A stretch of 64,000 nucleotides of DNA, taken from positions 15,830,428 to 15,894,427 of the forward strand of contig NC_064759.1 of the NCBI RefSeq assembly GCF_011397635.1. Reading direction: 5' to 3'. Source of the stretch: Epinephelus fuscoguttatus. Its lineage: Eukaryota > Chordata > Actinopteri > Perciformes > Serranidae. Under the pieces are notes generated by a model. It was not told the origin of the DNA. It ran no database searches and saw nothing but the letters and a program-made list of their open reading frames with translations. This document shows positions 5,335 to 11,555 of the stretch, piece after piece. Position numbers and translations under genes: made by a program. The stretch's first letter is position 1. The number at the start of each line of letters is the position of its first letter.

Positions 5335-8300
5335 TCATTTCTCCTGCATAGTCTTGTTGATCCAGTCCATATAGTTTGCAACTTTGGTGTAGAATCTGTA
5401 TCTGCCCTGCTGTCCACAGTCAACCCCCCAGCTGACAATCCCAGCAGCCCAGAACTGTCCGTCGTCTCTCAGGGCGAAGGGGCCTCCACCGTCACCTAGG
5501 CAGGTGTCCTTCCCACCTTCAGGGACTCCAGCACAAAACATGTTATTTGTCAGTCTTGGTACATTTTCCCTTGTCTTCCTCATCTTACTGAGTGAATTAC
5601 TGCATGTCTTCTGATCCACCACAGGGAGGTGCACATACTTTAGCCTATTTGTCAGGCGTGGGGGGTAGATTTTTGTAATGCCAAAGCCTGACACCAGTCT
5701 GAAAATAAAGAAAAAAGTAGACAAGACAGTAATGGTGAACTCAGCAATTCAGAGTCTGCAAGATTCACATGTTGGCACAACAAGGGGAAAAGGGCTAAAA
5801 GAAGAGTAAAAGGCAACATGAGATGATGAAGTTTAGAGAATGGCTTTGAAGTAAATCAATGTGAATTCTCAGTTGTTTCTTTACCCCATTTCTCCAGTCA
5901 TGTATGTGGCACCCTCTGCTGGCAAACATATTGGCATAATGGATGAGTTGAATGTGAGCGGGTCTTGAAGTTTGATCAAGGCAATGTCGTTGTTGTAGTC
6001 TGAGCTGCTGAGGTTGTATTCAGGGTGAATGTGGACTGAAGCAGCAAACACACGAAAGCCCAACATAGTTTTCACGTCAGAATACCCCATGTAAATCTGC
6101 AAACAACAGTACAGAAGGAAATAAAAGTCAGTGGAGGCAATGGACATGCAGATAACACCACAGTAACCCACTTACCTGTACAGTCTCGCGTGTTACTGGT
6201 TTTCCATCATGTGTTAGGTCATGAGCTGCAGTCATAATCCAGCGGTCTGCAATCACCATGCCTCCTCCTCGTTTTGCATTTATAGTCAATAGCACTTGCC
6301 AGGGGATGGTATCGTGTGGGGCTTCCCTGCCTCCAATAATCCTTTGATAGGCAGTGATGAGTTTTGTGGGCTGGCCACAGACTGGATAAGACAGACATAA
6401 ATAAGGTTCAATCAGACTTCATGTTTGAATAAAAGTGACTTTGATTAAATACCACAGGGTTCAATACCAGGTATACAGGTTAGAATGACATCGTTGTGGT
6501 TGGATCTCCACTTTCTGTCTGCTTCACAGGTGAAAGTAACTGAAAACCAGAGAGAACAAGATAGTGAAAATTATTTTAGTCAAACCATACCAGATATTTG
6601 AATTTTCATCAGTGATATTTTTTCTAGTAATATACAAATATCTCACCACTTACGCCCCCAGTAAGAGTGTAAAATGGTTCATTACAGTGATACTGAAAAA
6701 CAGACTGGTACTGATTCTGATAGCCAGACAGGTAGGTCACCCCTCCATTCAGCAGAGGTTCAGGTTCTCCACAATCAATTACTGCAGATGAACAAAACAA
6801 GGACATATTAATACGTTGCCAGTTAAAGAACAAGCATCAAACCATCATCTGCTTGTGCCCTTGGTCACAACTCACACTGATGTAGTTACATTAACAAAAC
6901 GCGTTGTCTCTCTCTGTTTGCTGCTCACCATGTGTGCTGTAGTCCAGGCTCCAGCCACGACTCAGGCCCTCAACATCAGTGTGGTAGTCCAGTATGACTG
7001 TGTTGGAATATGTAGCTATCAGACCTGGACTCTTTCCACCACACAGCTTCATGGGCTCTCTGCCTGGAATGGTCACCTACGAGGGAAGGAGTTGCAGAAA
7101 AGGTTTAAACTGAGCCGTATTAGAGTAGCCTCAATAAAATAGAGAGTCTCTATTTTATTGTCATTTGCTGTAAGGAGAATCTTTGCCAATACCTGCAACC
7201 AGTGACGTAGACATCTGGGACCTTGCTCAGTGTCCATGTTATCTATGTGGAAGTTGTCACTAAAGTTGAGAGTGATATTAAACCGGGGCTCCACCGTGAT
7301 AATGTACTTGCAGGACAAGAAAGGAGGTGAGGGATGAGGGTATCTTGGACTGACTAGATGTCCCTCATGCTTGTCTGATATATGACCACCACAGGAAACT
7401 GGACAAAAGGCAAAGGCAAGTATTATTGTAGCAAGAAGAAGAGATTTAGTCAGCATTAATGCCACACTATAACTACTAACTGTGGATTGGATTCACGCTG
7501 AGATGCTAAAGACTCTCGACAGTGTTGGGTTGTCTTGGTTGACATATGGAAGTCGGGGACAGTACCTGCAGAATGGCAAGCCAGGGTGGTGATTTTCATT
7601 CTTAGAAAGGGGTGGCAGAGGGTGTGCTCCAATTACCAGGGTATCACACGGCTCAGCCTCTCTGGAAAAGTTTACTCCAGGGTTTTGCAAAGATGGCCAG
7701 ATCTAGGAGGAGCAATGCAAATTCTTTCATGATCATGTAACAGCAGGCAAGGTCCGCACCCTTGCAGGGTTTTTGGGGGGTTAATGGGAGTTTGCCCATT
7801 CAGTTTACATCTGTTTTGTGGACTTGGGGATGGCTTACTACCATGGCCCTTTCCTGTGGGGGTACTGTAGGAGTATTGGGTACCAGGGCAGTTGCTCTCT
7901 GCCATCTGGTACTTATATAACCTAAGTGAGAGCTGTGTATGCATTCTCAGCAAGAAGTCAAACTAATTTTCAGTGAGTGTTGGGCTCCACCAGGATTGTC
8001 CCTTGTCAAAGATTTCATTTGGAATTTTTATCAACAGGGTGTCAAGGTGCAGATGGGGAGGAGAGTATCCTATTTGGGGACTTCAGAATTGCCTCTTTGC
8101 TCGTTGTTGCTTGTTTATGATGCAGTTCTGTGGCTTCATCAGACCGTGAACTTAAACATGTACTGGAGCAGTTAGCAGTCAAGTGTGATGCAGCAGAGCT
8201 CAGAGACAGCACCTCCATGTCTGAGGCCATAGCTCTCTGCCAAAAAGCCTTTTACCAGTTGGGAGTGAGTTGCTGTCCCAGTGTAGGACTTCAAGTATCA

Positions 8301-11300: not shown

Positions 11301-11555
11301 CTGTGGGAAGAAGCCAGAGAACCGCAGAGTAAACCCACCCCAATACATAAGGAACATGCAAACTCCACACAGTAGGGCCCCAGCCATCCTGTAGTCTCTC
11401 CTTCCATTCACTAGCCACCTCTTATATTATGTTTATACTGCATTTTTTCAAGAGAGAAATCCATGACAAAGAAAAAAACACTAAAACATCCACTAAAACA
11501 TAAAGGTGAGAAGATTTCACTAAGCTTACCATATAACACAGTAGGTCCATCCCAT
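5335..11555 (-). CDS. C1r-like pseudoprotease, second tandem copy (Ser195 to Gly, lacks CCP1)
   Basis: Exons: 11555-11530, 10854-10671, 9569-9392, 9272-9132, 7398-7193, 7076-6929, 6781-6647, 6539-6468, 6381-6176, 6096-5885, 5698-5335; 1872 nt, 623 aa, open throughout. Order: signal peptide, CUB1, EGF (DIDEC), CUB2, one CCP, trypsin-like domain. The activation site R-I-I-G-G, His57 (TAAHD), Asp102 (NNDIAL) and Asp189 are intact. The catalytic motif reads C-L-G-D-G-G-G, so residue 573 is Gly where Ser195 should be (codon at 5488-5490; GGT here, AGT in copy 1). The first CCP module is deleted; exon 6 to the CCP2 exon stays in frame. The open frame and good splice sites suggest a maintained gene for a secreted, cleavable but inactive C1r relative, comparable in principle to haptoglobin. 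Competition with C1r for C1q or C1s is inference. Confidence 0.85.
6843..6887 (-). pseudogene. Remnant of CCP1 exon in C1r copy 2
   Basis: This is the same 45-bp exon scrap as in copy 3, in the same place between the CUB2 and CCP2 exons. It keeps Cys-Asp-Gln-Gly and Met-Met, but its donor has drifted (GTTTG). Using the only nearby AG would run into a stop at once. Confidence 0.75.
7490..9042 (+). mobile_element. LINE (non-LTR) copy with ATGG tail, interrupted by a SINE
   Basis: The plus strand shows decayed reverse-transcriptase sequence: 'VCSNYQGIT' near 7625 and 'SGKVYSRVL' near 7670, then later palm and thumb-like pieces to about 8580. The 3' end at 8990-9042 reads into a repeated ATGG tail. 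A tRNA-type SINE interrupts it at about 8612-8803. It lies antisense in the intron between the EGF exon and the CUB2 exon of C1r copy 2. There are many stops and frameshifts, so it is an old dead copy. Confidence 0.75.
8612..8803 (-). repeat. tRNA-derived SINE (family B), decayed
   Basis: The minus strand begins with a tRNA-like head (AGCTCACCAGGTAGAA, then GGTTCAACTC as B box) and runs into a purine-rich body. It resembles the cleaner copy at 48432-48613. It is nested inside the LINE at 7490-9042. Confidence 0.6.
9133..9391. other. EGF exon and short intron of C1r copy 2
   Basis: The interval covers the EGF exon (9132-9272) and the 119-bp intron before CUB1's second exon. I see nothing else. 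The EGF module begins D-I-D-E-C and contains the usual Cys pattern. Confidence 0.5.
9570..10670. other. Intron 2 of C1r copy 2
   Basis: A 1.1-kb intron between the two CUB1 exons. It is AT-rich and holds GCTAAC/GTTAGC-rich stretches around 9900-9960 of the kind common in fish repeats. No exon or intact element was recognised. Confidence 0.4.
11278..11390 (-). repeat. Fragment of SINE family A
   Basis: A short match to the middle of the SINE at 31192-31568 ('AACCTGCATGTCT..GGCTGTGGGA' and 'ACATGCAAACTCCACACAG' in plus-strand reading). It sits in intron 1 of C1r copy 2. Confidence 0.6.

Follow-up and report, generated by a model that had tools for sequence, protein, structure and literature searches.

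Tandem C1r-like genes of Epinephelus fuscoguttatus include four copies predicted to encode catalytically inactive paralogues

Pseudoproteases of the S1 family are already known as a class. In haptoglobin, which has only CCP and serine protease (SP) modules and no CUB or EGF, the catalytic Ser is changed to Ala. Azurocidin, a granule protein, has Gly at position 195 and also lacks His57. C1RL is a C1r relative with fewer modules, and C1R and C1S adjoin in mammals. The C1r-C1r contact of the human protein is made by CCP1, which touches the SP domain of the partner subunit. Residues E49, Y56 and D102 of CUB1 and D226, H228, Y235 and D273 of CUB2 are reported to be essential for C1q binding in human C1r, while pairing of C1r with C1s occurs via the CUB1 and EGF modules and is controlled by the EGF calcium site (PMC4222235). 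MAp44 and MAp34 are inactive relatives of complement proteases that regulate (PMC7435015), and arthropod clip-domain serine protease homologues (SPHs) carry Gly in place of the catalytic Ser and do not perform proteolysis (PMC4372372). C1r-like proteins with a partial set of modules are reported in teleosts (PMC11312191). Our literature search, whose coverage left out most subscription papers, returned no description of a C1r-derived pseudoprotease family or of C1r copies with Gly195. Here we describe such a gene, copy 2 of a C1r-like cluster in Epinephelus fuscoguttatus. The window is the whole analysed stretch of 64,000 nucleotides (C8:15830428-15894427; contig coordinate = window coordinate + 15830427), and positions are given in window coordinates (Table 1).

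Copy 2 is an open and spliceable gene, as the initial annotation had read it. Its 11 exons join to 1872 nucleotides (nt), that is 623 codons and a stop, with no internal stop codon and with GT...AG at the ends of all 10 introns. Codon 195 (5488-5490) is GGT where copy 1 has AGT. The activation site, His57, Asp102 and Asp189 are present as previously listed, together with Asp194, Ile16 and the SWG motif of residues 214-216. Pfam finds two CUB domains, EGF (EGF_CA), Sushi and Trypsin (171.5 bits). Compared with solved structures, the CCP2-SP half finds C1r as the best chain (E 3.1e-71), while MASP-1/3 chains (187–191 bits) outscore C1r (174 bits) for the CUB1-EGF-CUB2 half. Cysteines of the modules are apparently retained, judging by eye from the alignment. 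The signal peptide, taken earlier to be intact, is altered. In copy 2 alone, exon 2 has lost 30 nt in frame, and with them the region where the relatives have their signal cleavage site, but a residual candidate, IHG↓ELQ, fits the (-3,-1) rule. In S1 proteases, Gly195 means that the nucleophile is gone, and no serine protease activity is expected of copy 2.

The comparison with described systems places copy 2 close to C1r but outside active C1r. It shares with C1r the CCP2-SP sequence, the module order minus CCP1, the R↓IIGG activation site, His57, Asp102, Asp189 and a C1s-like neighbour, and differs in the loss of CCP1, of the catalytic Ser and of the CUB1 residues for C1q. Both the module order CUB-EGF-CUB-CCP-CCP-SP and the catalytic triad of active C1r are broken in copy 2 (Gly195), whereas copy 1 has all six modules. 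With an S1 domain and a replaced catalytic residue, copy 2 falls among the S1 pseudoproteases. It has in common with haptoglobin a dead S1 domain of the same wider family, but it also has CUB and EGF. MAp44 and MAp34 have no protease domain and bind a defence collagen, whereas copy 2 keeps the SP domain and has lost the CUB1 site for C1q. The arthropod SPHs have clip domains, act in the prophenoloxidase cascade and belong to a separate lineage. C1RL resembles the cluster in its reduced module set (copy 4 is CUB-CCP-SP), but it has protease activity and cleaves prohaptoglobin (PMC5856381).

Two copies had been named initially, but the true unit is a cluster of five genes. Tandem C1r-like genes occupy the first 23 kb of the window on the minus strand, and the 30 kb to the left of the window, which were also read, contain the rest of copy 3 and copies 4 and 5. 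The models give 456 amino acids (aa) for copy 4, which is CUB1-CCP2-SP without EGF, CUB2 and CCP1, and 635 aa for copy 5. Every frame is open in copies 1–5 and the introns are GT/AG. Copy 1 has the same Pfam set as copy 2, its stronger Sushi match being CCP1. At codon 195, copies 1 and 3 have AGT and the other three (2, 4 and 5) have GGT, while His57, Asp102, Asp189, Asp194 and SWG 214-216 are retained in five of five. At residues 16–19, copies 1, 2 and 5 have IIGG, copy 4 has VMGG and copy 3 (860-655) has SIAS. In S1 proteases, a Ser at position 16 is expected to weaken the salt bridge formed on activation. Copy 3, with Ser195 kept and the activation end altered, is apparently a second route to a dead C1r copy. 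A normal protease is predicted for just one of the five, and copy 1 is likely the only one resembling a working C1r. A lone one-base mutant is ruled out, as Gly is common to three of the five copies. The earlier picture of a gene intact apart from one base is also contradicted by the missing CCP1 and the deletion in the signal region.

CCP1 is absent in all four derived copies (2–5), where the flanking exons join in phase 1 and the frame is preserved. An exon overlooked in annotation is ruled out, with just 147 nt in the intron between CUB2b and CCP2a of copies 2, 3 and 5 and about 470 nt between CUB1b and CCP2a of copy 4. A short CCP1 remnant in the CUB2b-CCP2a intron of copy 2 is similar to the end of exon CCP1a in copy 1. 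The human C1q-binding residues were placed on the fish copies through the structure-match alignment. At the positions of E49, Y56 and D102, copy 1 has E, Y and D, while all four derived copies have K, Q and S or N (K, Q and S in copy 2). This CUB1 contrast between copy 1 and copies 2–5 is clear in the alignment. In CUB2, copy 1 has E at the D226 position where copies 2, 3 and 5 have D, and all four of these copies keep D273, copy 4 being without CUB2. Copy 2 has a Pfam match to calcium-binding EGF, whose motif can also be read by eye in copies 3 and 5. The losses of CCP1 and of the CUB1 residues in copies 2–5 would most simply come from one ancestor. The start of CUB2 in copies 3 and 5 (SCGGC and SCDDC) carries an additional cysteine, which is probably unpaired and could permit disulfide-linked dimers.

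We favour, with a probability of about 0.6, the interpretation that copies 2–5 form a lineage-specific tandem family of secreted, catalytically dead C1r paralogues, and we hold about as probable that a non-catalytic protein is being maintained. The secreted pseudoprotease first suggested agrees with this in being C1r-derived, constrained in frame and predicted inactive, but not in its binding to C1q. Ser195 would have changed to Gly once, prior to the split of copies 2, 4 and 5, while copy 3 would have lost the activation N-terminus instead, the frames staying open. The proteins would be secreted, and those of copies 2 and 5 could be cleaved at R↓IIGG yet would cut no substrate. Copies with EGF (2, 3 and 5) may use the calcium-dependent CUB1-EGF face to form dead heterodimers with C1s or with the C1r of copy 1; for copy 2, pairing with C1s is conceivable because the calcium-binding EGF module is kept. 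Such heterodimers would not dock on C1q through CUB1 and would not activate C1s, and classical-pathway protease would be withheld or tempered as a result. Within the interpretation of a maintained non-catalytic protein, this pairing mechanism is the one we adopt, although we hold it to be less likely than not. It is also possible, though we rather doubt it, that the tandem cluster turned into dedicated non-catalytic regulators and that the loss of activity itself was favoured; this is suggested because four of the five genes are predicted to have become inactive along two or more separate routes, and all four have lost both CCP1 and the CUB1 site for C1q.

The flanking sequence is compatible with expression of the copies. 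The 170 bases 5' of the start codon are 78–86% alike among copies 2–5 and have blocks in common with copy 1, and poly(A) signals lie within 250 bases past the stop in four of the five copies (not in copy 4). A bacterial promoter scan 5' of copy 2 was uninformative. Should these proteins be produced, the classical pathway of the fish would have a regulator type that, to our knowledge, is absent from mammals. If they do regulate, they would be a classical-pathway counterpart of MAp44, built on a whole dead enzyme and acting off C1q. The cluster is also a natural series, with one enzyme against four apparently dead relatives for module-by-module comparison.

Maintenance of the frames is seen against the divergence of the introns. 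Introns were compared for five of the six pairs that the derived copies form; they have 69–78% identity with 12–22 indel events per pair, mostly non-multiples of three, and despite this the coding frames are intact in all four derived copies. If substitution along the terminal branch were neutral, a frame would stay free of stops with a probability of 0.001–0.07 across copies 2–5, and of 0.016 and 0.001 for copy 2 at two assumed rates; the calculation treats substitution only, with two rates per copy chosen by the analyst. The dN/dS ratio (omega) was modelled with our own script, and the tree used for SPa+b+c is not the best one later found. Over the 431 codons common to copies 1–3, branch omegas are 0.34, 0.41 and 0.37. 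A single omega fits these copies equally well (0.45), and omega 1 is rejected for copy 2 (0.41, twice the log-likelihood difference, 2ΔlnL, 7.25) and for copy 3 (2ΔlnL 10.39). Over 65 codons around SPa in copies 1–3, no omega hypothesis was rejected. In SPb+SPc (193 codons, five copies), the Gly branches give omega 0.59 (2ΔlnL 7.77 against 1) and the two Ser branches 0.57 (4.80); in SPc alone, the Gly branches give 0.52 (8.88). Taken together, the Gly lineages show purifying selection across these two final protease exons. Three omega classes fit SPb+SPc no better than one (2.13), and the internal branch to the Gly copies has omega 4.7 but is too short (0.017) for interpretation. Among single tips in SPb+SPc, copy 3 gives 0.58 (2.88) and copy 5 gives 0.43 (6.19), and only copy 5 is significant alone. 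For the derived copies, omega is 0.62 in CUB1 (2ΔlnL 4.51) and 0.33 in EGF-CUB2-CCP2 of copies 2, 3 and 5 (copies 1, 2, 3 and 5 aligned; 2ΔlnL 25.15).

The history of Gly195 was read from trees built without codon 195. The best trees of SPc, SPb+SPc and SPa+b+c unite copies 2, 4 and 5 to the exclusion of copies 1 and 3. A single origin of Gly before the three Gly copies separated is the simplest account. Conversion between copies or repeated origin may be an alternative source. In the 100 columns around codon 195, copies 2, 4 and 5 are 90–91% similar, which is within the range of other exon blocks. A very recent spread of Gly is unlikely because nearby silent sites differ and the similarity is in the normal exon range. 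Copy 1 is 72–75% identical in nucleotides to the others in CUB1 and 88–92% in SPb; being far in one and close in the other suggests conversion in the protease region. The segment 1097-1311 of copy 3 and 6619-6833 of copy 2, which is the CCP2a exon with its flanks, has 97% identity compared with 75% in the pooled introns, and recent gene conversion between copies 3 and 2 at CCP2a is likely from this similarity.

Several observations weigh against a maintained family of dead paralogues. The human residue set is an imperfect guide, H228 and Y235 of CUB2 being replaced in copy 1 too. Copy 4 is without EGF and CUB2, the pairing mechanism is inapplicable to it and a different role is needed. The approximately unbiased (AU) test leaves several topologies that split the Gly copies unrejected, and gene conversion among the copies, which is likely, can distort trees and rates. 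In the dN/dS check proposed in the initial annotation, copy 2 rejects omega 1 over the 431 codons, but its protease exons alone do not reject neutrality (omega 0.63, 2ΔlnL 1.77 in SPb+SPc; 0.75, 0.97 in SPa+b+c), and neither does copy 4 in SPb+SPc (omega 0.76, 2ΔlnL 0.52).

In a rival reading that we consider unlikely, copies 2–5 are decaying tandem duplicates without selected function, kept open through recency and conversion from copy 1. Loss of EGF and CUB2 in copy 4, of part of the signal-peptide region in copy 2 and of the activation end in copy 3 would agree with decay, as would a protease omega just moderately below 1 that is not significant for copies 2 and 4 individually. Four of four derived frames remain open, however, though introns differ by 22–31% in five pairs, and the omega of 0.33 in EGF-CUB2-CCP2 of the derived copies argues against decay. 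It is rather improbable that the dead protease domain, and not CUB1-EGF, is the working part and binds another protein, in the manner of haptoglobin or of the arthropod SPH cofactors. Ser to Gly is indeed the state of arthropod SPHs that serve as non-proteolytic cofactors (PMC4372372), copy 4 retains only CUB1-CCP2-SP, and the Gly lineages are constrained in SPc, but the protease exons are under less constraint than EGF-CUB2-CCP2. The decoy role initially envisaged, with copy 2 taking the place of active C1r on C1q as MAp44 and MAp34 do on MBL, is very improbable. In a teleost, MAp34 and MAp44 are competitors of MASP-1 for MBL (PMC7435015), and Asp is found at the D226 and D273 positions in copies 2, 3 and 5; the CUB1 residues, however, are replaced in every derived copy and kept in copy 1, and a C1q decoy is therefore disfavoured, CCP1 of copy 2 also being gone. 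A sequencing or assembly error at 5488-5490, raised as a caution with the first reading, has a negligible chance. GGT is repeated in copies 4 and 5, beyond the window, although the final protease exon of copy 2 is 17% and 20% different from theirs.

Table 1. Coordinates of copy 2 and of neighbouring C1r-like and C1s-like features in the window
Feature	Position	Strand	Description
Copy 2, C1r-derived pseudoprotease gene (predicted)	5335..11555	-	11 exons, 623 aa, CUB1-EGF-CUB2-CCP2-SP
Exon 1, start codon and signal peptide start	11530..11555	-	spliced model
Signal peptide end and CUB1 first exon	10671..10854	-	30-nt deletion; Lys/Gln at human E49/Y56
CUB1 second exon	9392..9569	-	Ser at human D102 position
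Calcium-binding EGF exon	9132..9272	-	spliced model and Pfam
CUB2 first exon	7193..7398	-	spliced model
CUB2 second exon	6929..7076	-	spliced model
Remnant of lost CCP1 exon, in CUB2b-CCP2a intron	6842..6869	-	limits approximate, by eye
CCP2 first exon	6647..6781	-	spliced model
CCP2 second exon	6468..6539	-	spliced model
Protease exon SPa, activation site R↓IIGG and His57	6176..6381	-	spliced model
Protease exon SPb, Asp102	5885..6096	-	spliced model
Last protease exon SPc, Asp189, Asp194, Gly195, SWG	5335..5698	-	spliced model
Catalytic codon 195, GGT (Gly) replacing AGT (Ser)	5488..5490	-	paralogue comparison
Copy 1	12823..23209	-	13 exons, 704 aa, CUB-EGF-CUB-CCP-CCP-SP, Ser195
Copy 3, first nine exons	1..4800	-	last two exons beyond left end; 635 aa; no CCP1
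C1s-like neighbour, open frame with single protease exon	25186..26022	-	best solved match C1s, E 8.6e-54

C1s-like exon matches extend from 33038 to 25207 on the same strand, upstream of the C1r copies, with CUB and EGF matches at 33038-29448. The C1s-like protease reads CEKDSGG, placing Lys (AAA) at the Gly193 position of the oxyanion hole; mesotrypsin has Arg at position 193. The protease domain is in three exons in copies 1–5 (15256-12823 in copy 1) versus one exon in the C1s-like neighbour. The human C1R protease domain is one exon, and an intron gain is possible. The SPb-SPc intron of copy 1 (about 14680-13330) is 1555 nt long versus 186–208 nt in the other copies. Its ends seem complementary by eye and DNA transposon-like, and no inverted pair of at least 150 nt is listed. 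Of the 84 open frames listed for the window, 20 were run through Pfam (18 from 27 kb onward and two within copy 1), and none matched a family. Such blank results do not equal gene absence because the blank frame 32435-32887 overlaps a C1s-like CUB exon. Several direct repeats of 165–170 nt, 69–82% similar to the reference copies, are found at 50907-51619.

Genome searches covered the genome of the window itself (1.05 Gb, 26 contigs), the only fish genome used. The last protease exon finds five sites in the cluster and one short match on contig C24. A second C1r locus was sought genome-wide with only the last protease exon of copy 1, which gave at least 79 matches outside the cluster. The best of these among those listed is 51% identical to the query exon, and the open frame there reads like a coagulation factor. 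Elsewhere in the genome, two further S1 domains have the catalytic Ser replaced. One on contig C2 (L029), which we tentatively take to be a haptoglobin copy, has GDAGG at the catalytic site. The other on contig C24 (L024), near other S1 genes and perhaps a protein Z-like gene, has GDDGS.

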